DNA from: Halorutilus salinus
Lineage (GTDB): Archaea; Halobacteriota; Halobacteria; Halobacteriales; Halorutilaceae
DNA length: 64,000 bases
Reading direction: 5' to 3'
Assembly (NCBI RefSeq): GCF_026242195.1
Contig: NZ_RKLV01000001.1
Span: 1-64,000, forward strand
In this document: piece after piece, positions 25,352-43,589 of the stretch
How the letters are laid out: each line of letters opens with the position of its first letter
How positions within the stretch are numbered: the stretch's first letter is position 1
Notes under the pieces: generated by a model
Databases searched by the model: none
What the model saw: only the letters and a program-made list of their open reading frames with translations
What the model was told of the DNA's origin: nothing
Made by a program: the position numbers and the translations under genes

Positions 25352-28300
25352 ATGAACGATAGACTGTATAGAGTGACGTTGATCCTGTCGGTATTTGCGC
25401 TGATAGGTGCGGCTGGTGCAGGTGTCGTAGCCGCACAGGACGCTACGGTAGGTAACACAACACAAGGAGATGACTACGACTCGCTACAGAACGCGATTGA
25501 TGGCGAGGCGGCAGGTAGCACGATACAGGTCAATGATAGCTACGACTCGTCGGCGGATACCTTCCCCATAACGGTATCCAATGATCTCACCATCAATGGC
25601 ACGGCTAACGCTGAAATCGTGGCTCAAACGGGAGATGTACCCGACAGAGATGGTGTTATCAATCAGAACGGTGGAACGCTCAACGTTGAGGACGTGAGGA
25701 TAGAGGTCAACCTCGACGCCGATAGTAAGATCATCCGAGGTATCGACAGCTCGTCTGGAGAGCTCAACGTGGACAACGTTGTGTTTGACTCGTCGGACGC
25801 CAGCTTCGGATTCCCTCAGAACAACTATACCCAGCTGGTTAACTTCCAGTCCGGCAACGGTAGCGTTACGAACTCCGAGTTCAACGGGGAATTCGGTGAC
25901 GCCATCCAGGTAAGAACGACCGACCCGGTTACTGTTGATAATAACGACTTTAACGGCGTCGATTCGTCAGAGGGTATCGGCGTGAACGCCAACGCAGAGG
26001 ATGGTCACGATAACGTCACTGTGACGAACAATAACTTCGACACCCTCGGCGGTCCTGTCACTGACTTCAACAGTCCGCCAGCGAATGCGGACGGCTTACA
26101 GGTGAGCGGTAACACCATAACTAATTCCGACGGTCTCGGTGACAGGAGCTCCATCTCGGTGGCTGGTCTCAACTCCCAGTTCGACATAGATTCGGTAGAC
26201 CCTGCGGGCGCTGACTCGACCATAAATGTAGGGACGAACGAGACGTACAATGTGACGGTTACTAACTCCGGAGCCGATCAGGACGCTAAGAACGTCTCCG
26301 TTGAGGTAGACGTTCCCGGCGGTACAAACCTAACAGCTACCGAAGATCTGGTACTGAATGCTGGTGAGACTGACAACGTCACGCTTGAGCTAGACACGTC
26401 GGGTCTAGATGCGGACACGTACAATGTCTCCGTCCGCACCAACGACAGCAACGATGACGAAGTCACCGGCGACCTGACGGTTTCGGATCCTGACGCGAGG
26501 AACTTCATCGACGGTAACATCGGTGACGACCAGCTGAACCCCATCGATAACGCCGGAGATGTCGAAATAAACGTAACGTACATCGGTGGCAGTGGTACGA
26601 GAGCCACCGACTTCACGCTCATCAGCCAGGTCCAGATAAGCGAACTCGACGACATACAAGACATCATCGACGATCCGCTGGACAACCGCGTCGACGACTC
26701 CGTCGGTGACGCTGGCTACAACCCGACCGCTCCCGATCAGAGGGACGAGTACTTCATCAACCTCCCCAACTTCGGAGACGGGACTCAGTTCAACGTTGAA
26801 GCCGATCTCGAAGGCTTCGGTGCCTTCGACGGACCCACCACGCCGCCGGTTGGTCCCGGTGGGCAGGCGGTGAGGGACATACGTCTTGAGCGCCTGATCA
26901 ACGCCGACGAGATTGATATCGACAAGACCCCCGCAGACGGTAGGGTCGATCTCGGCGGCACAATAACCGACAACGTAACTGTCCTTACCAACGACACCGA
27001 ACCGGCGGACGAGCTTGAACCGCTGTCCGACACGCCGGTCAACGTCACGGTGGTCGACAGTACCACCGGTGAGTTCCCTGGAGCGATATCCGAGGGAGAC
27101 CTCGTCATAACTCCGGTGCCGCCCGCAAACACGGGTTCGAACGGTACCGTCGAGTTCCAGATATCGCTCAACCAATCGGGTATCAACGCGGAAGCGATAG
27201 ACGGCGGAGTTGACTTCACGCTTGAGTTCGAAGCGACTGCGTCGGGTGACGGACCTGCTGTGACACAACAGCAGAACATCACCTTCGTCGGTGAACCGCC
27301 TACGGGAGATGGCACGATAGCAGGCGACGTTGAGGAGATAGTCACCGACGGTGCCAGCAACACAGAGTCTGCAGACGGGGTCAGTGTGCACGCTGTAAAC
27401 ACAGACCGTGTTGACTCCAACACCCACGGGTTCAATACTTCCGGAGGTCCTGCCACCGTGGAAACCTGGGTTACTGCTGACGAAGAGCGTACAACTCCTG
27501 AAAGCGTTCCCGGCGAAGGGAACGACTACGGCGAGTACTTCCGTGTTGCGGAACTCAATACCGACGGTACCGTAGCGGAGATTCTTGACGTTCGGACGGA
27601 CTACCTCGTTAGTCCGAGCACTAACGCGTACTCGCAGAACCTCTCGATGCCCGGAACCGGATTCACGTCCGATTCCACATCTGATGTCGGTGTCGCACCG
27701 CTGGAGCCTGGTGACTACCAGATCCAGTACTCCACCGACGGCTCCTTCGACAGCCCCGACCTGTCGAACTTCACAGCGACCGCGAACCTGACGTACGAGT
27801 TCACCGAACAGAGGTACAACGGCTCCGCGGCTGTCCACACGGACGTGACCCGTGACGACGGAACGTACGAGCTGTACAACCTGTTCACCAACGCTGACGC
27901 AGACACCAACTCTGACGCAGGTCAGACGTACGTCACAATAGCGGCTGACGACACTACCGCACTCGGCTTCGCCAACTTCCGTGGATACGATACGGTTGAT
28001 GTTCAGCAGAACAGCGACGCCGGTGGAGCCGACGACGACACAGGACAGCTTGAGACGGACCTTTCCGTCTTTGAGGTTCCTGTCCAGCCGGACAGTGTCA
28101 ACGTCACCAACATAGGCACGGTTTCAAGCCCTGCCGACGCTGACGCTAACTTCAGCCAAGATCTCAGCGCATTTGCCGACACATCTGACAACACGCGCCA
28201 GGCCATACCGCGTGACGGTAGCACCGTGGACGTCATCGAACTCCGCACGTTTGCGGAGGAAGGCGATGTCTCGGTAGGCGCTGACGCTACCGTATCGTTC

Positions 28301-30196
28301 TCGGAAACCGATGTCCCCGAGACGTTCGCTGGTAGCTTCCTCGCCGACGGTGTCGGTGGGGATGTCTCGGTTAACAGCGACGACCAGATAACCGTCGATA
28401 CCAGCCCAGAGGAAGGAAGCTACGAAGCCGGCGAAGCCGTCATCTTCCTCCGGTCTGACTCGGCTGGTCTCGATGACGACGCTAACCTAACCGTTGAGGC
28501 TGACCTCTCTGGTCTCGACACGGACACCACCGACAAGCTGTTCGAGGGCGTCCTGTCGCAGAAGTACGAGAGTGCGAGTATAACCGGTGTCGTGACCGAC
28601 GATAACGACAACCCGGTTGACGCTCGTATCTTCGTCAGCGAGTTCGTTGACGAAGGTGCAGGCATCGAGATAACGTTCGTGCCCGACGACGTTGAGGATC
28701 TCAACAACTTCACGGCGACGGTCAGTCAGATAGGCGGTCCGACGCTTGAAACGGTGGATCTCACCGCAGAGGATATGCAGGAGTTCGAGTTCCAAGGATT
28801 CGGTTCCAACCTGTCGCTCGCGGCTGGTGAAGAGCCATACCAGCTCCTCGCAGACCGTGCGGCAGACAGAACCACCCTGTCACCTGTACCGGCTGTCCCG
28901 GATGCTCAGCTCGGACCTACTGAAGATGTCACCTACGCCCTCAGAGGCGTCTCGGCACAGGGTCAGACGGGTACATCGGTCAGTACAGCCGTCGAGGTCA
29001 ACCGTACGAGTACCGCCAGCGTCGTCATAGACGCTATCGAGACGGAGTACCAACTCTCCAACCTGAACCCTACCGACGCAACCATCCAGCAGGGTGACGA
29101 TCTGACGGTTACCGCCGAAGTCACCAACTCCGGTGACTTCGCCGATAACCAGAGCGTCACGCTCGAGGTTGAGAACGAGGCAGGGGACGTAACGGAGATT
29201 GCGAGTCAGTCCGTCGAACTCTCTGCTGACGCCTCGACAACGGTCACCTTCACCGCCGAAAACGTTGATCTAGCGCCGGGTAACTACACGCACGCTGTCG
29301 CGTCCGAAGACAGTAGAGTGGAAGGCAACCTAACGGTTGAGGAAGCGCCCGACGAAGCGAACTTCGAGGTTTCGAACCTCGATCCGGCTGACGCGACGGT
29401 GACGGAAGGAGCCGATCCGATCAACGTCACAGCAGACGTTGAGAACACGGGCGACCTTAGCGGAACGCAGAACGTGACGCTCGAAGTCACGAACGCGTCC
29501 GGTGAGGTTGTCTACTCCGACACGGTGAGCACGGAACTCGATGCTGGAAACAGCACGACGGTGGAGTTCACCGGCGTCCAAGCAGGTGACCTCGCACCCG
29601 GCGACTACACGCACGCTGTCGCGTCCGATGACAGTAGCGTGGAAGGTAACCTAACGGTTGAAGAGGCACCTGATCCGGCGAACTTCGGTGTCTCGAACCT
29701 CGTTCCGTCTGGCGCGACGGTGACGGAGGGAGACGACCCGATCAACGTCACAGCAGACGTTGAGAACACGGGCGATCTTAGCGGAACGCAGAACGTGACG
29801 CTCGAAGTCACGAACGCGTCCGGTGAGGTTGTCTACGACGAAGAGGAGAGCGTTGAGGTTGACGGCGGAAACACCACGACGGTGGAGTTCACCGGAGTGC
29901 CCGCAGGCGACCTCACGCCCGGAGAGTACACGCACGCTGTCGCGTCCGAAGACAGTAGCGTGGAAGGCAACCTAACGGTTGAGGCGGTTGATGACGGCAA
30001 CGGTGGCAACGGCGACGGTAGCGCCCCGTCCGACAACCCACTCTTCGATGAGAGCGGCGAGCCGATGGATGGGCTTGACGTCACCGACGCTCTCACCACT
30101 TGGACCGAGACAGGTGAGATAAACGGTGAGCCCGTTGAGGGTCTTGATCTTATCGACTACCTCAGCGATTGGAACGAAGCACAGAGCGGTAACTAA
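25352..30196 (+). CDS. giant secreted beta-helix/CARDB surface protein with dockerin-like C-terminus
   Basis: 1614 residues. A signal peptide covers about 1-30 (LILSVFALIGAAGAGVVAAQD). Residues 40-290 are rich in N, D, T and G with VTVDNNDFNG-, VTVTNNNFDTLG- and VSGNTITN-like turns, i.e. a right-handed parallel beta-helix. A CARDB-like domain follows at 290-380, then long beta domains that I cannot name. From about 1232 to 1547 come three tandem CARDB-like repeats (see repeat entry). The last 55 residues (DNPLFDESGEPMDG to YLSDWNEAQSGN) form the dockerin-like module shared with the next two secreted proteins. No PGF-CTERM tail is present, so retention must work otherwise. Probable role: cell-surface adhesin or scaffold (inference). 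A terminator hairpin follows. Confidence 0.8.
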   Translation: MNDRLYRVTLILSVFALIGAAGAGVVAAQDATVGNTTQGDDYDSLQNAIDGEAAGSTIQVNDSYDSSADTFPITVSNDLTINGTANAEIVAQTGDVPDRDGVINQNGGTLNVEDVRIEVNLDADSKIIRGIDSSSGELNVDNVVFDSSDASFGFPQNNYTQLVNFQSGNGSVTNSEFNGEFGDAIQVRTTDPVTVDNNDFNGVDSSEGIGVNANAEDGHDNVTVTNNNFDTLGGPVTDFNSPPANADGLQVSGNTITNSDGLGDRSSISVAGLNSQFDIDSVDPAGADSTINVGTNETYNVTVTNSGADQDAKNVSVEVDVPGGTNLTATEDLVLNAGETDNVTLELDTSGLDADTYNVSVRTNDSNDDEVTGDLTVSDPDARNFIDGNIGDDQLNPIDNAGDVEINVTYIGGSGTRATDFTLISQVQISELDDIQDIIDDPLDNRVDDSVGDAGYNPTAPDQRDEYFINLPNFGDGTQFNVEADLEGFGAFDGPTTPPVGPGGQAVRDIRLERLINADEIDIDKTPADGRVDLGGTITDNVTVLTNDTEPADELEPLSDTPVNVTVVDSTTGEFPGAISEGDLVITPVPPANTGSNGTVEFQISLNQSGINAEAIDGGVDFTLEFEATASGDGPAVTQQQNITFVGEPPTGDGTIAGDVEEIVTDGASNTESADGVSVHAVNTDRVDSNTHGFNTSGGPATVETWVTADEERTTPESVPGEGNDYGEYFRVAELNTDGTVAEILDVRTDYLVSPSTNAYSQNLSMPGTGFTSDSTSDVGVAPLEPGDYQIQYSTDGSFDSPDLSNFTATANLTYEFTEQRYNGSAAVHTDVTRDDGTYELYNLFTNADADTNSDAGQTYVTIAADDTTALGFANFRGYDTVDVQQNSDAGGADDDTGQLETDLSVFEVPVQPDSVNVTNIGTVSSPADADANFSQDLSAFADTSDNTRQAIPRDGSTVDVIELRTFAEEGDVSVGADATVSFSETDVPETFAGSFLADGVGGDVSVNSDDQITVDTSPEEGSYEAGEAVIFLRSDSAGLDDDANLTVEADLSGLDTDTTDKLFEGVLSQKYESASITGVVTDDNDNPVDARIFVSEFVDEGAGIEITFVPDDVEDLNNFTATVSQIGGPTLETVDLTAEDMQEFEFQGFGSNLSLAAGEEPYQLLADRAADRTTLSPVPAVPDAQLGPTEDVTYALRGVSAQGQTGTSVSTAVEVNRTSTASVVIDAIETEYQLSNLNPTDATIQQGDDLTVTAEVTNSGDFADNQSVTLEVENEAGDVTEIASQSVELSADASTTVTFTAENVDLAPGNYTHAVASEDSRVEGNLTVEEAPDEANFEVSNLDPADATVTEGADPINVTADVENTGDLSGTQNVTLEVTNASGEVVYSDTVSTELDAGNSTTVEFTGVQAGDLAPGDYTHAVASDDSSVEGNLTVEEAPDPANFGVSNLVPSGATVTEGDDPINVTADVENTGDLSGTQNVTLEVTNASGEVVYDEEESVEVDGGNTTTVEFTGVPAGDLTPGEYTHAVASEDSSVEGNLTVEAVDDGNGGNGDGSAPSDNPLFDESGEPMDGLDVTDALTTWTETGEINGEPVEGLDLIDYLSDWNEAQSGN
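29045..29993 (+). repeat. three tandem CARDB-like repeats in the beta-helix protein
   Basis: Units begin at about 29045, 29360 and 29681, spaced 315-321 bases (105-107 residues). Each contains SNLxPxxATxxxGxD and ends GxYTHAVASxDSxVEGNLTVE. The second and third are nearly identical over about 80 bases (GACGTTGAGAACACGGGCGA onward), implying a recent duplication or gene conversion. Confidence 0.85.
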
Positions 30197-30206
30197 AGAC
30201 CGAGCC

Positions 30207-30256
30207 ACGCGGCTGAGGTAGCCGCGTAACAATACGACCTTCTTCTTTCTTTCGAC
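30207..30256 (+). terminator. hairpin plus pyrimidine tract after the beta-helix gene
   Basis: A perfect 8-base stem ACGCGGCT / AGCCGCGT with loop GAGGT at 30207-30227 starts 11 bases after the stop, followed by a T-rich run (CCTTCTTCTTTCTTTC) ending near 30256. It separates the gene from the subtilisin gene. Confidence 0.6.
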
Positions 30257-30309
30257 AGCTCACCAGTAGCCACAGCGCAGTCTCGCCGGAGATATATCCT
30301 ATCCACACA

Positions 30310-30318
30310 AAGACTATA
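30310..30318 (+). promoter_or_regulatory. TATA box of the subtilisin gene
   Basis: GACTATATC centred about 28 bases before the ATG at 30342, matching a leaderless transcript; no Shine-Dalgarno site precedes that ATG. Confidence 0.5.
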
Positions 30319-30341
30319 TCCTCCTAGTGCCGACTTGATCT

Positions 30342-33300
30342 ATGAGACTAAAAATCGCCGTGCTCTGTATAGCCCTACTTGCATTTACTCTATTCCCAGC
30401 CGCGCAGGCTTCGGATACCACCGTCGCACACGAGGTAGAAAAGAAGATGGAAACCTCCACCGAACCCGTCGAGGTATTTGTCAACCTCAAGAAGCTAAAT
30501 GGGTTGATGACACAACGGACGAGGGAACACCAAACCACGATCTCCCAACAGCGCCTTATCGACTACGCAGAATCAACCGAAGGGATCCGTGTTCTCAAGG
30601 ATTTCTGGATAACAAACTCTGTCTTAGTTGAGATAGACCCGAGGTACGACCATGAGAAGCTAACCCGTATCGACGGGGTACGCTCCTTAAGCCCGAACGC
30701 TCAGATGGGTGTTCTCGGTTCGTCCTCGTTGGGTCTACAGAACTCATCCACCGGTTCTACCACTGATCGATCCCCGACTACCACGCAATCAGTATCCACG
30801 AAATCAACCGACACGACCTACGGTATACAACAGATAAACGCCACGGACGTCTGGTCTCAGTACAACACCCAAGGCGAAGATGTCCGGGTGGCTATCCTTG
30901 ACACGGGCGTTAACGTCAGCCACCCTGACATAGAGCTACGTACGACCGACCCCTCTAACCCTACCTATCCGGGAGGCTGGGCTGAGTTTGACTCCAACGG
31001 TAACAGGGTCACCGGATCTGAGCCACACGACACGGGCACCCACGGAACACATGTAACCGGCACAGTCGGCGGCGAACACACCGGTGTAGCTCCTAACGCG
31101 AGCCTGATGCACGCGCTCGTGGTGAATGACGGATCCGGTGGAACCTACGCACGGGTAATCGCAGGCATGGAGTGGGCTGTCGAAAACGATGCGGATGTCG
31201 TTTCTATTAGCCTAGGAGGGGATAAGATCCAATCCACCTGGATCGACGCCGTAGAGAACGCGAATCAGATGGGTACGGTGGTCATAGCCGCTACCGGAAA
31301 CTATAATCAAGGCGGGGACGGTAGAAGCTCTACCCCTGGAAACGTGTACGACGTTTTAGGGGTCGGTGCCGTTGATACTAAGCTTGAGGTACCGGGTTTC
31401 TCCGGCGGCGAACTTCTTAATACCGATTCAACCTGGGGTTCCTCTGCCCCGGAAGACTGGCCTAATCAGTACGTCGTGCCCGATATAGTAGCGGCGGGTC
31501 TTTCGGTAAACAGCACCTCGGCTAACGGCGGATATGAAATACAGAGCGGGACAAGTATGGCAACCCCACACGTCGCAGGCGCTACCGCACTCGCACTCTC
31601 GGCTACGGGCGACAAGAGTCCCGACCGCGTGACCGACGCGTTTGCACTCACGGCTTTCGGGTCGGGTTCGGAGGAACCGGGCACGAGATACGGACACGGG
31701 GTAGCGGACGCTCTCGCTGTTACCGAACATCTCATCGACGACGCTTCCGTATCGGGTACGGTTGTCAATGGTTCGGGGACTCCTATTAACGATGCCAATG
31801 TCACCGTGGACGGTCTTCGTGTAGATTCCACAGGAGGAAGCTACGATGTGGGTCTCACCTCCGGAAGCTGGGATCTTGAAGTATCCGCTCCCGGATACCA
31901 GGATACGACCGAGACGGTGACGTTTGAACAAGACGAAAACGTCCGGAGGGACATACAGCTACAAAAGACACCGGACGGAAACACACCCCCAAAAGCATCG
32001 TTCACCTACTCGCCGAACAGTCCACAAACGTCGGAAACGGTAACGTTCGACGCCTCGGCTTCGTCGGACACGGACGGAACGGTACAGGGCTACGACTGGG
32101 ACTTCGGCGATGGAACGACGGCTACGGGCGAAACCGTGTCACACTCGTACGGTAGTTCGGGTGATTACGTGGTTGAACTAACCGTAACCGACGGTAGCGG
32201 GGCGACGGATACAGGGACAGAAACAGTATCGGTACAGTCGCCGAATCAGGAACCGACAGCATCGTTCACGTACTCGCCAAGCAGTCCCGACACCTCCGAC
32301 AGCATAATCTTCGACGCGTCGGGGTCGTCGGATACGGACGGAAGGATACAGAGCTACGACTGGGACTTTGGCGATGGAACGACAGATATTATAACGAGTG
32401 ATGCAACGCAACATTTGTACACTGCACCCGGAGACTACACGGTTGAACTAACGGTCACCGATAACGAAGGTGCGACGGATACAGAGACTGAGACTGTATC
32501 GGTACAGTCGTCCGGAGGCGACAATACCCTGCCGATGGCTTCTTTCACGTACTCGCCGAACAGTCCAGAAACGTCGGATACGGTGAGTTTTGACGCGTCC
32601 GGTTCGTCAGACTCAGACGGTTCGGTAGTCCAGTACGAATGGGACGTCGACGGTGACGGGGTTATAGAGTACAGTTCCTCTATGCCCACAGTCTCACATT
32701 CATACACCAGTTCAGGAACATATACAGTCGAGCTAACCGTCACCGACGATGACGGGGATTCCGTATCTACGGGCAAGACCGTATTCATAAGATCGCCTAA
32801 CAGTCCACCGACTGCGTCGTTCACCTACCAACCGGATAGCCCCGATACATCCGACACCGTGTCTTTCGATGCCTCAGGCTCGTCGGATTCGGACGGCACA
32901 ATAACGTCCTACGAATGGAACTTTGGCGATGGGACGACGGCGGGCGGTGAAACAAGATCCCACTCCTATGCAGATGCCGATACGTTCACAGTCACCCTAA
33001 CTGTGACGGACGATACCGGTGCGACGGATACGACCACACAAACAGTTTCGGTAAGCTCTTCGCCAAGTAACTCACCACCTATAGCAGAGTTCTCGATTAC
33101 CTCTGACACTCCACAGACAGGTGAGACTGTCTCCTTTGATGCCTCTAACTCATCAGATCCGGACGGAACCGTAACATCCTATACCTGGAACTTCGGTGAT
33201 GGAACGACAACAACAGGAGAAACGGCGTTACACTCCTACAGCACTCCGGGGAGTTACACTATCGAACTCACAGTGACCGATGACGACGGTGCGACAGCGT

Positions 33301-34517
33301 CTACGAATACTACGGTGTCTGTGAGTTCGTCAAATACCGCACCGACGGCGTCGTTCACGTACTCGCCGAGTAAACCGGAAACGTCCGACACCGTGACATT
33401 CGACGCATCAGGTTCGTTGGACTCTGATGGGGTCATACAGTCCTACGACTGGGACTTCGGCGATGGAACGACGACTACGGGCGAAACAGCGACACACACG
33501 TACAGTAATCCTGGAGACTACACAGCAACACTGACTGTGACGGGTGACGAAGGAGCGACGGATACGGAGACACAGGCAGTATCGGTGAGTAGTAGCGGTA
33601 ACGGAGGCGGAGGGACACAAGGGGACATAACAGACATACAGACAACTTTGTCGGACACGGACGGGGACGGTTTGGACGATAGCATAACGGTCGACGTATC
33701 GGTGGAGTCGGACGGAGGTGTGACGGCGGTAGAGTTTGACGCGCCGTTCTCGCTTGACCTATCCGAAACGGATGAGAGTCAGGCGGCTGTCGTACAGATA
33801 ACCGACGACCAAGAGGAGGAAAACGTAACGTTCGGAAGTATAGGTGGTTACACAGGAACGTACACGGTAGAAGGAACGTTGTCGGATCAGTCCGAAGGAG
33901 ACGTGGGTAATGTAACGGCATGGATAGGTGGTGTATCGAGGGAATCTGCGAGTGAAACAAGCGAGACACGGTTCACGGTTGAATCGGACACGTCGCCACC
34001 GTCGGGTAGCGTTAGTATAGATGCACCGTCGACGGTTTCGCCAAATTCGAGCTTTGAGGTAAAGACGTCCGTGGAGTCGGACGGAGGAGCGACGGTGGTA
34101 CAGTTCGATGCGCCGTTTTCGCTTGACCTATCCGAGACGGACGAGAGCCAAGCATTCGTGGTGAGTATAAACGACGACCAGCCTAACGAGATGGTAGCTT
34201 TCGGAAGTATGGGGCACACGGGAACGTACACCGTAGACGTCAAGATAGAAGATGGAGGCGACGAGGATAGTATAGAAGTAGCGTCCTGGATAGGCGACCT
34301 TGACCGTAGCAAAGCAGACGCGGAGGATACGGAGGTGGTCGGGGTTTCGGCTGAGGACAACCCCAGCCCGTTTATTGACTCAGGCGGACAGCCACTTGGT
34401 GAGCTACAGGTGGTACAGCGTCTGGTTCGCTGGAAAGATGACGGGAAGATAGACGGAGAGAGCTACGGAGAGATACGACTCGTCCGGTATCTCATTGGAT
34501 GGAACAACGCCACATAA
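30342..34517 (+). CDS. secreted subtilisin-like protease with six PKD domains and S-layer-shared modules
   Basis: 1391 residues. Signal peptide 1-24 (Sec type, ending AAQAS). An I9-like propeptide occupies about 25-125. The S8 domain has the full triad: D187 (ILDTGVN), H234 (HGTHVTG), S405 (GTSMATPHVAG), with oxyanion Asn in ATGNYN. A carboxypeptidase-regulatory-like domain (SGTVVNGSGTPINDANVTV) follows near 470-540. Six PKD domains run from about 549 to 1085, each with SFTYSP, FDASxSSD and W(D/N)FGDGT. Then come two copies of a domain also found at the S-layer N-terminus (about 1095-1345), and the dockerin-like C-terminal module (DNPSPF to LIGWNNAT). No PGF tail. Predicted extracellular protease maturing by propeptide removal; the PKD array is probably a spacer or wall/substrate binder. 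Confidence 0.9.
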   Translation: MRLKIAVLCIALLAFTLFPAAQASDTTVAHEVEKKMETSTEPVEVFVNLKKLNGLMTQRTREHQTTISQQRLIDYAESTEGIRVLKDFWITNSVLVEIDPRYDHEKLTRIDGVRSLSPNAQMGVLGSSSLGLQNSSTGSTTDRSPTTTQSVSTKSTDTTYGIQQINATDVWSQYNTQGEDVRVAILDTGVNVSHPDIELRTTDPSNPTYPGGWAEFDSNGNRVTGSEPHDTGTHGTHVTGTVGGEHTGVAPNASLMHALVVNDGSGGTYARVIAGMEWAVENDADVVSISLGGDKIQSTWIDAVENANQMGTVVIAATGNYNQGGDGRSSTPGNVYDVLGVGAVDTKLEVPGFSGGELLNTDSTWGSSAPEDWPNQYVVPDIVAAGLSVNSTSANGGYEIQSGTSMATPHVAGATALALSATGDKSPDRVTDAFALTAFGSGSEEPGTRYGHGVADALAVTEHLIDDASVSGTVVNGSGTPINDANVTVDGLRVDSTGGSYDVGLTSGSWDLEVSAPGYQDTTETVTFEQDENVRRDIQLQKTPDGNTPPKASFTYSPNSPQTSETVTFDASASSDTDGTVQGYDWDFGDGTTATGETVSHSYGSSGDYVVELTVTDGSGATDTGTETVSVQSPNQEPTASFTYSPSSPDTSDSIIFDASGSSDTDGRIQSYDWDFGDGTTDIITSDATQHLYTAPGDYTVELTVTDNEGATDTETETVSVQSSGGDNTLPMASFTYSPNSPETSDTVSFDASGSSDSDGSVVQYEWDVDGDGVIEYSSSMPTVSHSYTSSGTYTVELTVTDDDGDSVSTGKTVFIRSPNSPPTASFTYQPDSPDTSDTVSFDASGSSDSDGTITSYEWNFGDGTTAGGETRSHSYADADTFTVTLTVTDDTGATDTTTQTVSVSSSPSNSPPIAEFSITSDTPQTGETVSFDASNSSDPDGTVTSYTWNFGDGTTTTGETALHSYSTPGSYTIELTVTDDDGATASTNTTVSVSSSNTAPTASFTYSPSKPETSDTVTFDASGSLDSDGVIQSYDWDFGDGTTTTGETATHTYSNPGDYTATLTVTGDEGATDTETQAVSVSSSGNGGGGTQGDITDIQTTLSDTDGDGLDDSITVDVSVESDGGVTAVEFDAPFSLDLSETDESQAAVVQITDDQEEENVTFGSIGGYTGTYTVEGTLSDQSEGDVGNVTAWIGGVSRESASETSETRFTVESDTSPPSGSVSIDAPSTVSPNSSFEVKTSVESDGGATVVQFDAPFSLDLSETDESQAFVVSINDDQPNEMVAFGSMGHTGTYTVDVKIEDGGDEDSIEVASWIGDLDRSKADAEDTEVVGVSAEDNPSPFIDSGGQPLGELQVVQRLVRWKDDGKIDGESYGEIRLVRYLIGWNNAT
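31987..33595 (+). repeat. array of six PKD domain repeats
   Basis: Six successive units of about 85-92 residues share ASFTYSP, FDASGSSDxDG, YDWDFGDGTT, HxYxxxGxYTVELTVTD and GATDTxTxTVSV. DNA-level similarity is visible (for example GGGACTTTGGCGATGGAACG and variants), so the array probably grew by unequal exchange. Confidence 0.85.
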
Positions 34518-34890
34518 TAAACTATCCTAACCTACCTCGTTGCTACCAACCAGGTTTGAGGTTGGTGTGTAGATCAGTACCCCCTCGCGCGTGACTGTCA
34601 ACCGTTGAACGTGTTTCATCGAGTGAATATATTTCATCGTTCTTTGGTCTATATTGATCTGTTTGTCGGGGATCACAAAGATATAAGTGTTGCGCGGTAG
34701 CGAATGGTAGTATACCGGAGTGAACAGAATGGGGGAGAACAATTAACCATGGCACGAGGTATGGGTGGGCGGATTTGGTCGGGTGGACTGAACCGAATAT
34801 GAGCGGGTGTACGAGCACCGGTGTTCGGATGACGTTCGGCGTAAGAAAGTCGTCCAACGCCTCAACTAGGACTGTTAAGTTACTTCGGGG
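34518..34890. other. AT-rich intergenic region
   Basis: 373 bases between two large surface-protein genes. Apart from the hairpin, it holds no convincing gene. Two overlapping minus-strand frames (34527-34742 and 34543-34857) are open but have unusual composition and no recognisable motif. TTGTTAAG-like AT patches and TATATTTC occur but no clear promoter. Confidence 0.5.
34545..34566 (+). terminator. hairpin after the subtilisin gene
   Basis: A 7-base stem ACCAACC / GGTTGGT with an 8-base loop, 28 bases after the stop. There is no clear T tract, so its role as terminator is uncertain. Confidence 0.35.
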
Positions 34891-36411
34891 GTGTCTATGA
34901 CAATAGAACGCACGGTTGACAAAGACAAGTACAGTACTCAGGCACGTGGTAGCATAGGCGCGCGAAACGGAGTTCGGTCCGGCTTAGCACGGGTAAGCGA
35001 CGGCATCGGTTGGGACGGGTACCGGATACCGGTTCTCCTCGCTATCGCGGCTGTCGCGCTCGTGGTTCTCGCTGGTTCGGCGGTTGACACGGTCGGTGCT
35101 GCCGACGGTGAGAACTTTACCGTTGATACTGGGACGAACGTGACAGTTGAACCGAAAAACTCTGCTGTTACGTCCACGGGTGAACTCTCAGAAACAGCAC
35201 GGATGCAGACATTTAACGTCACCCTTGACCGTGGTGATATTGAGGTGGGTGAAACTACCACATTTGAAGTGGAAATAGAGGTCGCCGAACAGATTGGTGG
35301 ACTCGCAGAGGTAGAAACAGTTGAGGATATCAAGGTGGAGAATATAGGTCATGACCATCCGAATCTTAGTGTTAGCCCAACCGAAGCTGATGTTGGAGAT
35401 CTTACTGTCGGGAAGTCCGAGACAGTTACCTTTGACGTAACGCAAACAACTGAGGATGAACTTTTCTTTACTCTGAGGATTACGGGCAACGTCAACGGAA
35501 CACAGGTTGAGCAACTGTTCTCACGTTCTATCAAACCCGAAGACGGAAACAAAACCGACTGGGTAGATACCCCTGAAGGAGAACCGTCACCAATTACGAG
35601 CGGAACCGAGTCGACTCCAACCGATAAGGTCACCAATGACTCTGTGTCTACTCAGGCAACCGCTACTGTCACAGGAACTTGGTACTACTTGGACGGTAAC
35701 GATAACAAGCAACCATGCAAAAGGTGCTGGGTTGAGGTAAAAGATAATGATCCGGTAAGTGACGGAACTCTGGCAAGTGGACGGACGGACGCAAACGGTG
35801 ATTATAGTTTCTCCTTTGACCCGACGAATTCGGGGGCTACCGAGTTCAGTAATGTTGATGTTTATGTGAAAGTCTACGCGGACAACGGGGTTGTGGAGGT
35901 AAAAGAAGATGGTATTTACCCAAATCCAACATACTCTGACACAACCGAAACTGAGAACGACGTTCAAGATGGGGCGTATATATCATTCTCTAACACGGTA
36001 AGTGAAAACAAGGAAGCTTGGCAAATCGCTGAAGATGCACGGACAGCTCGGGACTATATTCTGGATGAGACGGGCTGGACTAGAGACAGTATCCTAACAA
36101 GATGGCCTGCTGATAAGAGTGAATTCATGAAGTCACCAATTAGCGAACTAGATGAATATATTAAAATAGGGAGTGATTGGGATTCCGGAACTGTATACCA
36201 GGAATATGGGCATGCAGTTATGTATAGCATGTATGGTGATAGTTATCCGGATACTGATGATTATAATAACCGCCACTGCTTACATAGTCATACGGATCCT
36301 GGGTTTGCCGTTGTAGAGGGGTGGTCAGCGTTTGTCTGGGGAGCGGTGGCGGATGATTCGACTGAGGTTAGGCATAGTTACCTCAATACTAATATTGAAA
36401 TTAATACTTAG
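34891..36411 (+). CDS. surface metallopeptidase-like protein, N-terminal part before an in-frame TAG
   Basis: 506 residues from GTG at 34891 (an ATG two codons later is equally possible). The N-terminus is unusual: about 45 polar and basic residues precede a hydrophobic segment (VLLAIAAVALVVLAG), then an extracellular part. A beta domain follows (VTVEPKNSAV to about 225), then a transthyretin-like domain with a CxxC (PCKRCW), and a helical domain ending in a gluzincin-like site. That site reads YQEYGHAVMY: the first His of HExxH is Gln (residue 437), while H441 and the downstream EGWSAF Glu remain. The frame ends at TAG 36409-36411 but reopens without shift. DNA from about 35300 to 36400 is visibly more AT-rich than the flanks, suggesting transfer or decay. 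Confidence 0.75.
   Translation: MSMTIERTVDKDKYSTQARGSIGARNGVRSGLARVSDGIGWDGYRIPVLLAIAAVALVVLAGSAVDTVGAADGENFTVDTGTNVTVEPKNSAVTSTGELSETARMQTFNVTLDRGDIEVGETTTFEVEIEVAEQIGGLAEVETVEDIKVENIGHDHPNLSVSPTEADVGDLTVGKSETVTFDVTQTTEDELFFTLRITGNVNGTQVEQLFSRSIKPEDGNKTDWVDTPEGEPSPITSGTESTPTDKVTNDSVSTQATATVTGTWYYLDGNDNKQPCKRCWVEVKDNDPVSDGTLASGRTDANGDYSFSFDPTNSGATEFSNVDVYVKVYADNGVVEVKEDGIYPNPTYSDTTETENDVQDGAYISFSNTVSENKEAWQIAEDARTARDYILDETGWTRDSILTRWPADKSEFMKSPISELDEYIKIGSDWDSGTVYQEYGHAVMYSMYGDSYPDTDDYNNRHCLHSHTDPGFAVVEGWSAFVWGAVADDSTEVRHSYLNTNIEINT
36409..36411 (+). other. single in-frame amber codon splitting the metallopeptidase-like gene
   Basis: The TAG is the only stop between 34891 and 39558 in this frame: the ATG used for the downstream part at 36466 lies exactly 19 codons later. 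Sequence right after it continues the protein family (DGNSVEGSAASIWWDI). TAG is also the normal stop of several genes here (for example at 5340, 8226, 10898 and 43589), so general recoding as pyrrolysine is unlikely; a nonsense mutation is the simplest reading. Confidence 0.8.
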
Positions 36412-36465
36412 TTCGATCTAGCTTTCTCTTCAGACGTAGACTGTATCCCTGGTAAATTAGGTGAA

Positions 36466-39400
36466 ATGGACGGCAACTCTGTCGAAGGGAGCGCGGCGAG
36501 TATCTGGTGGGATATCATTGACAGTAATCAGGATAACTATCGTGAAGGAATCTCCGGCAAAGAATCCATGGACTACTCGTTTAACGATGTCTTCCAGACG
36601 ATGAAGGACAACAACATAGAGAGCATGAACGAGTTCTTCAACGAGTGGGACCACGGAGACAAACACGAACTACGCAAAATATACTACAACTACGGCATCG
36701 ACAGGAACACGCCACCTTCGGTCAGTAGCCCTGAGCCACCTTCTGCGAACGAAGAGAACTACGCCTACCCGTCCGGTTGGATATACTCGCCGAGTTGCTG
36801 TGGTATCGAAGTCTCAACGACTGCGAATGATCCAGATGACGGTGTAGTTAAGAACGTAACATTTGAGTATTCAACAGACGGAGGCAACTCTTGGACAGAA
36901 ATTGGCACCGATGAAGATGGTTCGGACGGATGGGAAGTACGCTGGGCTACAGGTGTCACACAGGAGGGAGTACACGTCAGAGCGAGAGCCTACGACGAAA
37001 TCGAGAGAGGCACATGGGAGGTCGATACCTCCTGGAACATAGATAACGACCGTCCGCTACCGACAGAGAACCTCAAAGCGTCGGTTCCTACCTCCGGATA
37101 TACCGACCAGACGGACGTAACGTTCAGTTGGGACCGTCCTTCTGACGAAGGAAGCGGTGTTCAGGGCTACTACTACGAACTTGACGACGACACCCCTGAC
37201 AACGAAATTACGAATCCCTCCCAAACCAGTAAGAGCTACTCGGGGCTCTCGGACGGCGAGCATACGTTCTACGTGACGGCGTACGACGGCGTACAGTTAG
37301 AAGGCGCTATGAGGGACAGAACGATAAAGATAGACACCACACCACCCACGACCACCCATGACGTCGATCAGCAGGACGGTTCCGCCGAGGTGTCGCTTGA
37401 CGCAACCGACGACGGAAGCGGTGTTGAGACAACCTACTACCGCATCGACGGAGGTTCGTGGCAGACGTACAACGGTCCGTTTACCCTAACTACCACCGGC
37501 GAAAGGACCGTAGAGTACTACAGCGAGGACTCGGTCGGGAACGAAGAACAGATACAGGAGACGACAGTAACAGTCAGCCATGACTCACAGCCACCTACTG
37601 CGGATGCAGGCGGATCTTACTACGTTGACGAGGGAGGGAGTGTGAACCTGGACTCTTCCGGATCGAACGACCCGGACGGCAACATACGGGATAAGTCATG
37701 GCAGGTGGTTACCGGATCGGGTTACGTGTTCGATGGAACGTACGTAGCACCCGATAACGTCGACAGCGACGCCGACGCGACGGTTGAACTGACGGTTACC
37801 GACAACGACGACCTAAGTAACAGCGGTACGGCGACCGTGACTGTGCGGGATACCGAGGATAACAGTGGCGGCGGGGGTGGCGGAGGTGATAACACACCAC
37901 CTGACGCGTCATTCACGTACTTACCAGGTAGCCCAGAGGTGGACGAAACGATAACCTTTGACGCGTCCGGTTCGTCGGATCCGGACGGAAACATACAGTC
38001 CTACGAATGGAACTTCGGCGACGGAAAAACGTCGACGGGCAAGTCCCCGTCGCACGCGTACGACGGTACGGGTGAGTACACAGTCACCTTGACAGTAACC
38101 GATGATAATGGGGGCACAGACACCGCCACACGGATGGTCCCTGTCGGTTCCCAGACAGAAACCGGGATGATCGTAGGAGAGGTCACCGACACGGACGGAT
38201 ATCCGGTAACCGGAGCCGAGGTTAGTCTGTACACCGGATCAAACGATGATCCCGTGGATACAGATATAACATCCCCGGACGGAAACTACAGCTTCTCCTC
38301 GCTAGAACCGGACACGTATACGGTCGAAGCTAGCTACGAGGGTTCGGTGAGTATAGACATAGTCTCGGTTGGAAGCGGTGAAACAGAATCAGCTAAAATA
38401 GCGTTGGATCTTGACGACACCGGCAACAAGACACCTGTTGCCGACTTCAGCTATTCGCCCTCGTTGCCGAGCGTAGGGGATTACATAATCTTTGACGCCT
38501 CTGACTCATCAGATCCGGACGGAGTTATACAGTCGTACGACTGGGAGTTCGGTGACGGAACGACGGCGACAGGTGTTACTCCGACACACTTGTACAGTAC
38601 CGCAGGCGAGTATACTGTCACACTGACGGTAACGGATAACGATGGGCTGACGCATAAGATTACACGAACGGTATCCGTAGATTCGTCGACATCTAACTCA
38701 CCACCGAGTGCAGGCTTCACTTACATGCCAAAAGGTGCGAGCGCCTCTGACAGCATAACCTTCGATGCTTCGGCTTCGTCAGATCCGGACGGAGTTATAC
38801 AGTCGTACGACTGGGAGTTCGGTGATGGAACGACTGCGACAGGTGTTACTCCGACACACTTGTACAGTACCGCAGGTAAGTACACTGTCACACTGACCGT
38901 AACGGATAACGATGGAGCAACCGACACGATGACACGGACTACCCCGATAGAGTCCGACGATGATGAGGGTGGCAGGGATGGCGAAGGTACAGTAGATGAC
39001 ATACAAACTAGCGTGTCGGACACGGACGGAGATGGTATGTCTGATAGAATTAAAGTAGTCGTAAAGGTATCGGACGTAAGCACGGGACATACAAGAGTAG
39101 ATCTAACAGAGAGTGAGTTTGACGTAGACGTGTCACCGACAGATATGGAAGACGGGGATCAAGAAGACTTCGTGTCGTCAGAGGATCCTGACAAAGACGG
39201 AACACCCGAATCCGTGGAGTTTGTTGGTGTAGCACCCGGCGGAGGTACGGTTGACGGTACCTACACTGTAGTAGCTGAACTTTCAGGTCACACAGCCGAA
39301 GAGACCGGTGTAGTTGAGGTTGACCTTGTCGGTGGTATGTCGGAATCCGAGACGTACGTTGTTGATAAAGATGGAGCCGCTGGAGAAGGAGTGTCATCTG

Positions 39401-39558
39401 ACAACCCGTTCGGAAACACTAACAACGAACCTGTTGGGGATATACAGGCAGTACGAAGTCTAGTTAGCTGGAGTGAAAACGGTGAGATGGATGGACGGAG
39501 CTACGGTGAGATACAGCTCGTCCGGTATCTCGTTGAGTGGAACAACGCTAGATCATAA
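36466..39558 (+). CDS. C-terminal part of the split surface protein: PKD domains and dockerin-like end
   Basis: 1030 residues from ATG 36466; it has no signal peptide of its own, so it is exported only if translated with the upstream part. Residues 1-85 complete the metallopeptidase fold (EGSAASIWWDI, FNDVFQTMK). Then Ig/FN3-like domains (about 85-370), a PKD-like domain with ADAGGSYYVDEGGSV, a Gly-rich linker, a PKD domain (about 480-565), a carboxypeptidase-regulatory-like beta domain (GEVTDTDGYPVTGAEV), two more PKD domains nearly identical in DNA, a diverged copy of the S-layer-shared domain (DDIQTSVSDTDGDGMSD), and the dockerin-like module (SSDNPFGNTNNEPVGD to LVEWNNARS). No PGF-CTERM. 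It may be a silent 3' fragment or be made by reading through the TAG. Confidence 0.75.
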   Translation: MDGNSVEGSAASIWWDIIDSNQDNYREGISGKESMDYSFNDVFQTMKDNNIESMNEFFNEWDHGDKHELRKIYYNYGIDRNTPPSVSSPEPPSANEENYAYPSGWIYSPSCCGIEVSTTANDPDDGVVKNVTFEYSTDGGNSWTEIGTDEDGSDGWEVRWATGVTQEGVHVRARAYDEIERGTWEVDTSWNIDNDRPLPTENLKASVPTSGYTDQTDVTFSWDRPSDEGSGVQGYYYELDDDTPDNEITNPSQTSKSYSGLSDGEHTFYVTAYDGVQLEGAMRDRTIKIDTTPPTTTHDVDQQDGSAEVSLDATDDGSGVETTYYRIDGGSWQTYNGPFTLTTTGERTVEYYSEDSVGNEEQIQETTVTVSHDSQPPTADAGGSYYVDEGGSVNLDSSGSNDPDGNIRDKSWQVVTGSGYVFDGTYVAPDNVDSDADATVELTVTDNDDLSNSGTATVTVRDTEDNSGGGGGGGDNTPPDASFTYLPGSPEVDETITFDASGSSDPDGNIQSYEWNFGDGKTSTGKSPSHAYDGTGEYTVTLTVTDDNGGTDTATRMVPVGSQTETGMIVGEVTDTDGYPVTGAEVSLYTGSNDDPVDTDITSPDGNYSFSSLEPDTYTVEASYEGSVSIDIVSVGSGETESAKIALDLDDTGNKTPVADFSYSPSLPSVGDYIIFDASDSSDPDGVIQSYDWEFGDGTTATGVTPTHLYSTAGEYTVTLTVTDNDGLTHKITRTVSVDSSTSNSPPSAGFTYMPKGASASDSITFDASASSDPDGVIQSYDWEFGDGTTATGVTPTHLYSTAGKYTVTLTVTDNDGATDTMTRTTPIESDDDEGGRDGEGTVDDIQTSVSDTDGDGMSDRIKVVVKVSDVSTGHTRVDLTESEFDVDVSPTDMEDGDQEDFVSSEDPDKDGTPESVEFVGVAPGGGTVDGTYTVVAELSGHTAEETGVVEVDLVGGMSESETYVVDKDGAAGEGVSSDNPFGNTNNEPVGDIQAVRSLVSWSENGEMDGRSYGEIQLVRYLVEWNNARS
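38508..38916 (+). repeat. near-identical direct repeats inside two PKD domains
   Basis: The stretch TCAGATCCGGACGGAGTTAT onward at 38508-38645 recurs at 38779-38916 with only a handful of changes. The spacing of 271 bases equals one PKD unit, so this is a recent domain duplication. Confidence 0.85.
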
Positions 39559-39590
39559 CCCTTCCTCGTACCAAATCTCGACGAAACCGT

Positions 39591-40291
39591 AGGGGTAGGT
39601 TTAGGAACTGTGACCGGCAGACTATTGACGAGGCTAATACGAACCTCACCGATATCAACGCGGATGGTACTGATAGTTACTGTGGAAATAAACGTAACAA
39701 ACGATCGCGGAGCTACTTCCGTTGAACTCAATGGATCTATTGATTCTTTAGAGGTACCGCCGGCGGGAGATGGGGTTGCCAAACCTCTGTAACGAACGTT
39801 TCAGGCGACGTAGCAAGGTTCGATAGCACGGTTACACAGGACATATTCTGTTGAGAGAACTATAGCCAATTCTCGGACGGTGACACTCTCAAGCTGACCG
39901 CGTGGGTTGGTGGTGTTGACCGGTCACAGCCGGATGATGTACGAGAAACCTCAACCACCCTTTCAGAAGGTGACAGCAATGGATCCAGCTCTAATGACGA
40001 GACAAGCTACAAGGCGATTGTGAACAAAATGATAGGGGCGACGAAGGATGTTGGAGAGAAAACCCCTAGATCTACACACCTCAGGCAGTTCTCGCCGTTG
40101 TTACGGTAGCTACCATGCGACTCTAATCAAAGAGTGGCGTTTGCTTACGAACGGGAGATGTTGGTACTGAACCGGTTCCAATAAAAACAGATGGTCAGCT
40201 GAAACGAAGATGTACAGATAGATGTACGGCGCCACGTAGGGATCCAGATCGCTCAGTATCTAATCGAGTGGAACTATCTACGGAAATAGAG
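39591..40291 (+). pseudogene. decayed copy of the S-layer-shared domain and dockerin-like module
   Basis: Several short frames line up with the neighbours in order: VTVEINVTNDRGATSVEL (about 39676-39735) matches VTVDVSVESDGGVTAVEF; TNVSGDVARF follows at about 39793; SDGDTLKLTAWVGGVDRS at about 39875-39930 matches the AWIGG part; NEPV-like TEPVPIKTDGQL at about 40168; and IQIAQYLIEWNYLRK ending in TAG at about 40245-40290 matches the end of the dockerin-like module. At least two frameshifts and stops separate them. This is the 3' end of a fourth gene of the set, degraded. Confidence 0.65.
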
Positions 40292-40393
40292 CGGTAAAGC
40301 AAGTAACTAGCTCCGGTTACCTTTGGGGTAGTGTATGTCTGTTTCATTCCTGGCTCTGGAGCCGTGAACGACGCCCGTATGACGTTTTAACAG

Positions 40394-40406
40394 AAAGTAT
40401 TTAAGC
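40394..40406 (+). promoter_or_regulatory. candidate promoter of the S-layer gene
   Basis: AAAGTATTTAAGC contains a TATA-like TATTTAA; transcription would start near 40427, leaving a leader of about 100 bases before the ATG at 40527. Long leaders are known for haloarchaeal S-layer mRNAs. Confidence 0.45.
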
Positions 40407-40463
40407 AATCCACGTATGCTATTTACCGTGAACCTGGTTAGCTGTAGGCGTATGGCTGTTCCC

Positions 40464-40522
40464 ATGGAGGTGGAGCCAGCCGAGGCTGACCTGAGGTTCG
40501 GACAATAGTCCGAAACAGGTGA
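40464..40522 (+). promoter_or_regulatory. S-layer mRNA leader: short upstream frame, hairpin and ribosome binding site
   Basis: An ATG at 40464 opens a 14-codon frame MEVEPAEADLRFGQ ending at TAG 40506-40508. That stop lies inside a perfect 7-base hairpin TTCGGAC-AATA-GTCCGAA (40497-40514), immediately before the Shine-Dalgarno AGGTGA at 40518-40523 and the ATG at 40527. Translating ribosomes could open or close the hairpin and so tune S-layer synthesis (inference). A similar CCCATGGAGGT start occurs in the leader of the gene at 25352. Confidence 0.45.
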
Positions 40523-40526
40523 AAAC

Positions 40527-43500
40527 ATGAATAGAAAATATAGAATCACTGCGGCGCTTCTGGCGCTTGTAGTGGCTGTGTCGGTAACGGCGCTCGCCGC
40601 GCCCGTGGCGGCACAGAGTGTTGATAACGTTGACGTCACCCTTAGCGATAGCAACGGTGACGGTCTTGACGATGCTGTGACGGTGGATGTATCGGTTACA
40701 GATGATGGCGCGGCAACTGCCGTGGAGTTCGGCAGTGGCACGACGGTTGACCTTTCGGCTACCGACGAAGGTCAGGCTCCGGTTGTCAGTATAAACGACA
40801 ACCAGCAGAACGAGAACGTTACGTTCGGTAGCACCGGCTACACGGGTACGTATACCGTGGAAGGCACGCTCTCCGGACAGTCTGACGGTGACTCCGTTGA
40901 CGTGACTGCCTGGATTGGTGCAGTCAGCCAGTCTGATGCGGACGATACCGCCACTGCTTCCGCGACGGTTCAGAACACCACAGACGGTGACGACGGCGGA
41001 AATGGTGACGACGGTGACGAAGTAACCGTCACACCCGGCGACCGTAACCAGAACGGTCCGTTCGGTACCGGTGAGATCTACCTCGGCGAAGCAGGAAACC
41101 GTCCGACGGTCTTCCAGGGCGAGTCCGACATACAGTTCATCGCCCCTGACGGCAGTTCGATCGATACCCTTACCAGTACCGACGATCAGAACCGTGTCCT
41201 CGACGTGCCCATAGGTACGAGCGAGGAGACGGGTGCGTACACCATACAGGGTACCGACGCGGCTGACGACCCCGGTGCCGTCGTTCAGGAGCCTGAGGTA
41301 ACGAGCCTCGAAATAATCAACGTCAACGGCGAGGACGTCAGTAGCGTCACGCAGGGCAACGAAATCGCCATCGGTGTTGACTTCAACTACGGAAACGCCG
41401 AGCCTCTCGACCCCGAGGTACTCGACGATGAAGGTGTCGACGTTACGGGTCAGTACGTACAGGCCGGCGCTCTCGAAGGTACGGATGGTTACGAGGATCT
41501 TCTTGGCAACGACAGTGACCTCGAAGAAGCTCAGAAGGAAAAGGTCGAGAACGAGGGCTACGACTACCTCATCTCGGCGAACTTCGGCGACTCCGGGCAG
41601 TTCGAGATAGTCGCGGGTCCCGACGGAGACGGTGACCTCGCTGACATCGACTCCGCAACGTCGACCGAGGTTCTCGAAGTCGCCTCCGACGACGACCCCG
41701 AGCTTGAACTCGAGCAGGATACGGCAAGCCAGGGTGAGGAGGTCGACGTAGAGGTCACCAACGTCGAAGACGGTGACACGTACTACGTCGCCATACAGAC
41801 TGACGACAGACGTGACGACAACTCTCCCGTGGACAGGTACGTCAACGACGTCTTCGTCAACGCCGGTGACACGGAGAACACCGGTGTTACCGACGACGAT
41901 GAGTACTACTACGCTGAGGTTGAGGCGGACGGTACCTCGGGACTCACGCGTATAGACACCGAGTTCCTTGACGACACGAGCATCGACATCTACCTCTACG
42001 GTGAAGGTGACCAGGATGTCGACTACGTCGGAGACACTGACTTCGAGCAGGACGATGTCTCGCTTGAAGTCTCGCAGGCACAGATAACCGTCGACTCGCC
42101 GGGTCAGACGTACGTCCCCGGTCAGGAGGTCGACCTCAACGGTACGGTCTCCGAGGGTGTCGACGATGTTGCGGTCTTCATACGTGACCGTGACAACTAC
42201 TTCCACGTTACAAACATCTCGGTTGACGACGACGACGACACGTACGAGGAGACCGACTTCGACCTTAGCGAAGATTCCAATACGCAGGACGCGGCTGACA
42301 TAGTCGGTCAGCCCGGTGTCTACCGTTACGGTGTCATCGACCTGCAGGACGTCGTTGCGGCGCAGAACGACCCCGACTCTGAGACTGACCGTCCGTTCGT
42401 CGGCTCCAACGTCGACGCTAACGCGGGTCTCACATCGTCCGACTTCAGTTCGGGCGCGAGCGTCCAGCAGTCGCTCCGTGTCGCCGAGCCTTCGCTCGAA
42501 GGCGCCATAGAGACGTACAACGGTGAGGTCTTCGCATCCGACGACGTTGACATCACCGGTACGCTCATCGGTCCGCGTGAGTTCGTGACGCTGTTCACCG
42601 ACTCGCGTGGTAACACTGTGGTCAACACGTACAACGCCGACAGGGACAACGGAGAGATAGACGAAGAGGACATCACCATCAACTCCCTCTCGACGGGTAA
42701 CGTCAGAGGCACCATCCTCAGCCCCGGACGTGACACCTCGTTCGGTGACGGCACGCTCTCGATACCGCAGTCCGAAGTTCCGGCTGGACTGGAGGCCCCT
42801 CTTGAGGGTACGGTCGACAACTTCGTCGCCGTAGCCAACGTTGCGGGTCAGGGCAGGACGCAGTCGCAGGTTACCGAGCTTCTGCTCTCCGAGACCGTCG
42901 AGGACGCGGCTAGCGACGACCTCATAGTCGCCGAGGAGTTCCGTCTCAGGGACGACTCGTCGACACAGATAGAGGACGTCGTTCCGTCGCAGATCTCCGA
43001 CAACGCGACCGGAATCGTCGACATCGAGGTTGGCGAAGAGATGGTCGTGCGCGGTACAACCAACCGTAACCCCGACGACGCGACGATAGTCGTCGAGGCT
43101 ACGGAAGGTCCCTCGCTCGCCGAACTCGGTACGGCGGTTACTGACGAATGGGGCTACGACGGCGAATGGAACGTCACCATAGACGTTCCCGAGTCCGTTG
43201 AACCCGGTCAGTACACCATCCAGTCCGACGACGGTGACCGTATCTCCGAGGCTAACGTCACAGTAGCCGCGGAAGGTACGTTCGAGCCGGGAGAGCGCGT
43301 CGGCGACCAGCTCGGTGAACTCCGGAACGAGATAGAGGAGCTTCAGTCCACGGTCGACAACCTTGAGTCCGAGCGTAACGATCTTGAGGAGCAGGTCACC
43401 ACGCTCGAAGATGAGAACAGCCAGCTAGAGGCTGATCTCGAAGCGGCTCAGAACGATACTGACACGGGTGGTGCAGACGACACCAACGAGACTGACGACG

Positions 43501-43589
43501 GACAGGGTCAGCCCGGATTCACGGCTGTCGCCGCCCTCATCTCGCTGATAGCGGTTGCGCTCCTCGCAATCCGCCGTCAGGAAGAGTAG
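40527..43589 (+). CDS. csg: S-layer glycoprotein with extra N-terminal domain, coiled-coil stalk and PGF-CTERM
   Basis: 1020 residues. Signal peptide 1-34 ends PVAAQS. Residues about 35-150 are a domain shared with the secreted subtilisin (VDVSVTDDGAATAVEF, FGSTGYTGTYTVEG, AWIGAV). From GDRNQNGPFGTGEIYLGE onward the protein matches the haloarchaeal cell-surface glycoprotein: VFQGESDIQF, EFLDDTSIDIYLYG, GRDTSFGDG, ETVEDAASDDLIVAEEFRL, NRNPDDATIVVEAT and DEWGYDGEWNVTID occur in the same order as in the Haloferax protein. The usual Thr-rich stalk is replaced by a coiled coil (LRNEIEELQSTVDNLESE...), then GQPGFTAVAALISL and basic RRQEE: a PGF-CTERM tail for archaeosortase lipid anchoring. It forms the paracrystalline cell wall. 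Confidence 0.92.
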   Translation: MNRKYRITAALLALVVAVSVTALAAPVAAQSVDNVDVTLSDSNGDGLDDAVTVDVSVTDDGAATAVEFGSGTTVDLSATDEGQAPVVSINDNQQNENVTFGSTGYTGTYTVEGTLSGQSDGDSVDVTAWIGAVSQSDADDTATASATVQNTTDGDDGGNGDDGDEVTVTPGDRNQNGPFGTGEIYLGEAGNRPTVFQGESDIQFIAPDGSSIDTLTSTDDQNRVLDVPIGTSEETGAYTIQGTDAADDPGAVVQEPEVTSLEIINVNGEDVSSVTQGNEIAIGVDFNYGNAEPLDPEVLDDEGVDVTGQYVQAGALEGTDGYEDLLGNDSDLEEAQKEKVENEGYDYLISANFGDSGQFEIVAGPDGDGDLADIDSATSTEVLEVASDDDPELELEQDTASQGEEVDVEVTNVEDGDTYYVAIQTDDRRDDNSPVDRYVNDVFVNAGDTENTGVTDDDEYYYAEVEADGTSGLTRIDTEFLDDTSIDIYLYGEGDQDVDYVGDTDFEQDDVSLEVSQAQITVDSPGQTYVPGQEVDLNGTVSEGVDDVAVFIRDRDNYFHVTNISVDDDDDTYEETDFDLSEDSNTQDAADIVGQPGVYRYGVIDLQDVVAAQNDPDSETDRPFVGSNVDANAGLTSSDFSSGASVQQSLRVAEPSLEGAIETYNGEVFASDDVDITGTLIGPREFVTLFTDSRGNTVVNTYNADRDNGEIDEEDITINSLSTGNVRGTILSPGRDTSFGDGTLSIPQSEVPAGLEAPLEGTVDNFVAVANVAGQGRTQSQVTELLLSETVEDAASDDLIVAEEFRLRDDSSTQIEDVVPSQISDNATGIVDIEVGEEMVVRGTTNRNPDDATIVVEATEGPSLAELGTAVTDEWGYDGEWNVTIDVPESVEPGQYTIQSDDGDRISEANVTVAAEGTFEPGERVGDQLGELRNEIEELQSTVDNLESERNDLEEQVTTLEDENSQLEADLEAAQNDTDTGGADDTNETDDGQGQPGFTAVAALISLIAVALLAIRRQEE

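Follow-up and report, generated by a model that had tools for sequence, protein, structure and literature searches.

To our knowledge, little is understood about how archaeal exoenzymes are retained on a surface made only of an S-layer, apart from the use of lipid anchors and PGF-CTERM. The PGF-CTERM/archaeosortase system (TIGR04126, TIGR04216) retains exported haloarchaeal proteins on the cell, and the S-layer glycoprotein of the locus described here (P0005) itself uses PGF-CTERM. Canonical cohesin-dockerin pairs are present in other haloarchaea, and the ANME archaea likewise have exoproteins with docking modules, together with scaffoldin-like proteins that bear several receptor domains (PMC9012536). 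One 2.7 Mb genome of the same order as ours (G006; e.g. L054, L060, L061, L063-L065) has 56 type I dockerin matches and a cohesin + dockerin protein. No canonical cohesin or dockerin (PF00963 / PF00404) was found in the genome that holds our locus (G000) or in its relative G003.

We analysed a 64,000-nucleotide stretch of G000, called the window here, and compared it with two related genomes: G002, of the same genus, and G003 (MAG Ods02, JAQZDA01), placed in the same family and a different genus. The latter belongs to Ca. Ordosarchaeia, a class proposed between methanogens and haloarchaea and described from soda-saline lakes of the Ordos Plateau (PMC10873845). The island under study, with its surroundings, has the following features:

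25200..25351, + strand: S-layer-type leader before P0001, with TATA-like AAAGACTTTAA
25352..30196, + strand: P0001, secreted, 1614 aa, CARDB/NEW3-like repeats; a beta-helix protein according to the original prediction
30032..30181, + strand: terminal module of P0001 (alignment)
30342..34517, + strand: P0002, S8 subtilase with CarboxypepD_reg, six PKD domains, two A8 domains and the module
33627..33992, + strand: first A8 domain of P0002
34002..34358, + strand: second A8 domain of P0002
34365..34511, + strand: terminal module of P0002 (alignment, AF2)
34891..39558, + strand: P0004+P0003, one gene, metallopeptidase-like (YQEYGHAVMY) with PKD; in-frame TAG at 36409-36411
38992..39378, + strand: A8 domain of P0003
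39400..39549, + strand: terminal module of P0003 (alignment)
39560..40300, + strand: decayed A8 + module gene remnant, between P0003 and the S-layer gene
40527..43589, + strand: S-layer glycoprotein P0005, TIGR04216-like, PGF-CTERM
40620..40982, + strand: A8 domain at the N-terminus of P0005 (AF2)

The third protein had been read as split, with P0003 first listed as an ORF at 36466-39558; that ORF is the downstream part of a single gene (34891-39558, 1555 codons) that is open apart from one in-frame TAG, which may be a nonsense mutation, an assembly error or a site of read-through. The three genes were also said to lie directly upstream of the S-layer gene: they do adjoin it, but across a 968-bp gap occupied by the remnant, which retains traces of A8 (39559-39792 and 39861-39962) and of the module (40188-40274, with a stop).

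The terminal module and its carriers

The tails of P0001, P0002 and P0003 align over ~50 residues with pairwise local scores of 103, 112 and 165, where shuffled sequences reached at most 44, 51 and 58 (shuffle p ~1e-10 or lower), which bears out the shared terminal module of the original prediction. Twelve copies align over 50 positions, with P11, L21, G32 and W47 invariant, and each consists of two tandem 23-residue loop-helix units, roughly [D/N]GxPVxxx[E/Q][V/I][I/V]xxLLxW, a conserved Trp closing each helix. Compared with itself, the module scores positively at an offset of 23 only (mean BLOSUM +1.47, with negative values at every other offset between 15 and 31), and the repeat is individually significant in 10 of 11 copies (p <= 0.0002). 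The two-helix layout that had been proposed also agrees with the AF2 model of the P0002 tail, in which the module (pLDDT about 89-96) has two 14-residue helices (residues ~1354-1367 and ~1377-1390) and loops that contain short bridges; this loop-helix / loop-helix layout is read from predicted secondary structure alone.

The resemblance to dockerins suggested earlier holds for architecture and fails for membership. Tandem repeats of ~22 residues, as in dockerins, have their counterpart in the peak at 23 residues, and the predicted loop-helix / loop-helix structure is also that of a dockerin; the D-x-N/D-x-D-G calcium loops, however, are absent, the 12-copy alignment keeping only (D/N)G-like positions with the first ligands missing, and the module gave no hmmscan match to PF00404 and an hhalign probability of 0.6% against 11 haloarchaeal dockerins. 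Pfam and NCBIfam scans matched no model to the module tail, a PDB sequence search with the module and A8 profiles returned no match for either, and a Foldseek search with the three-domain P0002 tail, whose matches are dominated by the first A8 domain, found no fold match of the module.

The 12 carriers are divided between G000 (five genes) and G003 (seven). A search of G000 with its own module recovered the three island genes, a 763-aa protein (C12:116261), a 932-aa protein (C11:86352) and the decayed copy (window 40188-40274), so that the module genes of this genome are spread over three contigs. On C11 (L008 6780-12001), five related membrane-like proteins ('SIGMVGA..GVGIGGFV') are arrayed directly behind the module gene. 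G003 has an island of its own, in which four consecutive module genes encode a 1096-aa protein, an S8 subtilase, a beta-helix/NosD protein and a GLUG protein; its three further carriers (1063-1186 aa) share an HELGH...DLYG motif and are M6-peptidase-like by inspection. The module is C-terminal in nine of the 12 carriers and directly follows the signal peptide in these three HELGH...DLYG proteins, a placement which argues that it is not strictly a C-terminal sorting signal and which favours a binding module. The upstream domains of the carriers are unrelated, and outside the module most of the proteins do not align between the genera; P0002 and the S8 protein of the G003 island are 43% identical over 452 aa.

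All 12 carriers have a signal-like N-terminus and look secreted rather than cytoplasmic, none has a C-terminal hydrophobic stretch, and none of the 12 ORFs is matched by TIGR04126 (PGF-CTERM), a model with five, 10 and 15 places above cut-off in G000, G003 and G002, respectively. That the module proteins lack PGF-CTERM was thus correctly predicted, and the idea that the module is an alternative to it stands as a correlation.

The A8 domain and the distribution of both domains

A second domain, A8, is shared by P0002 (two copies), P0003 (one) and the S-layer protein P0005 (one), the A8 of P0002 being 60% identical to that of P0005; this sharing, and the position of the island inside the S-layer gene relative to the sister genome, go beyond the original prediction. 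P0001 carries the module without A8, as do the C11 and C12 carriers. AF2 models the A8 of P0005 as a nine-stranded beta-sandwich (pLDDT 83.8, pTM 0.78), for which Foldseek returned mixed Ig-like sandwiches (BslA, TM 0.60) with a Ruminococcus cohesin at rank 5 (5lxv, E 6e-4, TM 0.44 only). The predicted structure is compatible with a cohesin-like fold, and A8 is not demonstrably a cohesin: it gave no match to PF00963 and an hhalign probability of 0.6% against 12 haloarchaeal cohesin sequences. The AF2 model of the P0002 tail contains no module-A8 contact, its second A8 domain having a pLDDT <50 and the model a pTM of 0.39.

In both genomes an anchored protein carries A8, and an A8 gene is the last of the cassette. 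In G000 the anchored protein is the PGF-CTERM S-layer protein (P0005 scores 398 bits against TIGR04216, cut-off 400); in G003 it is a 239-aa protein with a signal peptide and a hydrophobic (TM) tail, LPGGFTAGVTVAALVALFATRTMRSF, which is PGF-like without matching TIGR04126. This protein has the sole A8 domain found in G003, and its gene lies 68 bp behind the four module genes, which themselves lack A8. Both full-length S-layer proteins of G002 are without A8; in G003, where the S-layer gene is cut by a contig end, and in G001, where it is partial, the N-terminus falls outside the sequence. The canonical haloarchaeal cohesin proteins at L043, L046, L050 and L053 end in a PGF-like motif and a hydrophobic tail, a layout reminiscent of the anchored A8 proteins.

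Among 295 genomes of the order, the module was found at E <= 0.001 in G000 and G003 only, and among 394 genomes drawn from the phylum in G000 only; this is the profile search that had been proposed for the module, as the AF2 model and the calcium-loop comparison above are the structural one. A8 occurs among the 295 in G000, in G003 and, as two tandem copies without a recognisable module, in G074. Both domains are present in two of the 295 genomes (G000 and G003) and adjacent in both, so every genome found with the module also has A8, adjoining it. The positives are few and related, which makes this co-occurrence suggestive only; as the two genomes with both domains belong to one family, it may reflect a single evolutionary event. 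A scan of genome contigs matched the module in Ods02 only and A8 nowhere; the module was found in no viral contigs and A8 in no plasmids.

Several weaker candidates were rejected. Module matches in G058, G132 and G251 (E 0.005-0.007) cover only 23-36 positions, and a G075 match with A3 (E 4e-5), located in an oxidase-like ORF, was put down to compositional noise. The gene before the A8 gene of G074 has a dockerin-like tail, possibly two-helix (L041 8986-11672), which the module profile scores at 5.5 bits (E 3.9). A match in G285 (E 0.004), to a cohesin-like domain beside a real dockerin, was too weak to count; the G285 protein (L039) combines PKD repeats, a cohesin-like domain and a canonical dockerin.

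The island inside the S-layer gene

The neighbourhood in G002 (hydantoinase-like, HDAC-like, CBS, PGF protein, NUDIX, S-layer, NAC-like, MinD-like) is otherwise the same as that of the window and has no island, and the module and A8 are absent from this genome as well. The DNA alignment of the window with G002 runs from 20191 through 25434, where it covers the leader and signal peptide of the G002 S-layer gene, and is picked up again at 42049, within the S-layer body. At the protein level, P0001 (residues 1-33) shares 70% identity with the G002 S-layer protein (residues 6-38), and residues 187-1020 of P0005 are homologous to residues 217-1092 of that protein, residues 1-186 of P0005 not being so. 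These alignments assign the leader and signal peptide of the S-layer gene to P0001; the S-layer protein begins afresh with a signal peptide followed by A8. A small fragment of the S-layer start recurs at P0005 (score 37, shuffle maximum 26).

In G003 the island is preceded by the same upstream genes and stands at the end of contig C20; the first bases of C33 already lie within the S-layer gene, an arrangement compatible with the same place as in G000. The leaders before the first island gene of G000 and G003 are 84% identical over 147 bp (window 25200-25351; L018 8260-8425), for comparison with protein identities of 72% (HDAC-like) and 43% (S8) between these genomes, and the window leader also resembles the S-layer leader of G002. 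Two of these three leaders contain ATGGAGGTAGATCARTAA, possibly a short upstream ORF or an extra Shine-Dalgarno; predicted folding of the leader RNA does not surpass that of shuffled sequence. Since the island stands at the same place in two genera, it could have been lost in G002 as well as gained in G000.

A candidate docking pair

We propose that the module would be a transferable docking tag by which secreted proteins, including many peptidases, are tethered to the cell surface. That the module works like a docking module is probable; that A8 is what it binds is a more tentative suggestion, and we hold just as tentatively the combined reading, in which module and A8 form a dockerin/cohesin-like pair that tethers exoproteins to the S-layer. 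The A8 beta-sandwich would be the most likely receptor, residing in the S-layer protein in G000 and in a separate small hydrophobic-tailed protein in G003, and P0002 and P0003, having A8 as well as the module, could serve as adaptors to which other module proteins bind. Relative to G002, the cassette occupies the 5' part of the S-layer gene; expression of its first gene is therefore probably driven by the promoter and leader of the S-layer, perhaps at S-layer level. The retention or assembly role envisaged in the original prediction draws its support here from genomic context, namely the A8 domain and the S-layer locus.

The main rival gives A8 and the module separate partners: the module would bind another surface partner (S-layer glycan, S-layer body or another protein), and A8 would be an independent stalk or self-association domain placing P0002 and P0003 in the S-layer through A8-A8 contacts. 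Such homotypic contact also explains why A8 occurs in P0002, P0003 and the S-layer protein, and both the carriers that have the module without A8 (P0001 and those on C11 and C12) and the failure of AF2 to give a docked model fit it; it is, however, hard to square with G003, where the only A8 protein is encoded 68 bp behind four A8-less module genes, and we regard it as unlikely. A dimerisation or oligomerisation tag that clusters exoproteins with one another, and needs no surface receptor, would suit a small, internally two-fold repeated unit of two helices, each ending in a conserved Trp, but is improbable, as it leaves unexplained the distribution shared with A8 and the place of the cassette in the S-layer gene. 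It is quite improbable that the shared tail is a functionless by-product of tandem duplication and gene conversion within a rapidly evolving array of exoprotein genes, of which the tandem arrays in both genomes and the decayed copy would be signs, given that the carriers have unrelated upstream domains, occupy three contigs in G000, and keep the module between genera while most of their other sequence does not align. A secretion or sorting signal processed on export, like PGF-CTERM or a type IX C-terminal domain, would account for the C-terminal position in nine of 12 carriers and the mutual exclusion with PGF-CTERM, yet it is far-fetched for a module that is predicted to be folded, has no hydrophobic segment and comes right after the signal peptide in three proteins of G003.

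If docking between the module and A8 is true, a docking tag and an S-layer-borne receptor would make up a second, non-covalent route of retention, the S-layer gene would have been remodelled around an exoprotein cassette in Ca. Ordosarchaeia, and a short salt-tolerant tag for surface display would be at hand. A further-reaching version, which we consider somewhat doubtful, is that the pair arose independently of dockerin-cohesin with the S-layer lattice as its scaffold, a cassette of docking-tagged exoproteases having settled within the S-layer gene, taken over its promoter and signal peptide and left a receptor domain fused to every subunit.

Set beside the known systems, the module differs from PGF-CTERM in having neither the PGF motif nor a hydrophobic segment, in being N-terminal in some proteins and in being absent from PGF-CTERM proteins. 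The ANME proteins were found with standard domain libraries (PMC9012536), whereas the module and A8 match neither Pfam family. The closest likeness is to cohesin-dockerin, in that secreted proteins of various kinds bear a small duplicated loop-helix module, a cell-anchored partner has a beta-sandwich and some proteins combine both kinds of domain; the window module differs in its 23-residue repeat (vs ~22) without calcium loops, and neither half of the pair matches by Pfam or profile. Though their sequences are not demonstrably related to either family, the module and A8 would dock as dockerin and cohesin do, with the difference that here the putative receptor is fused to the S-layer protein itself and the cargo is rich in peptidases.
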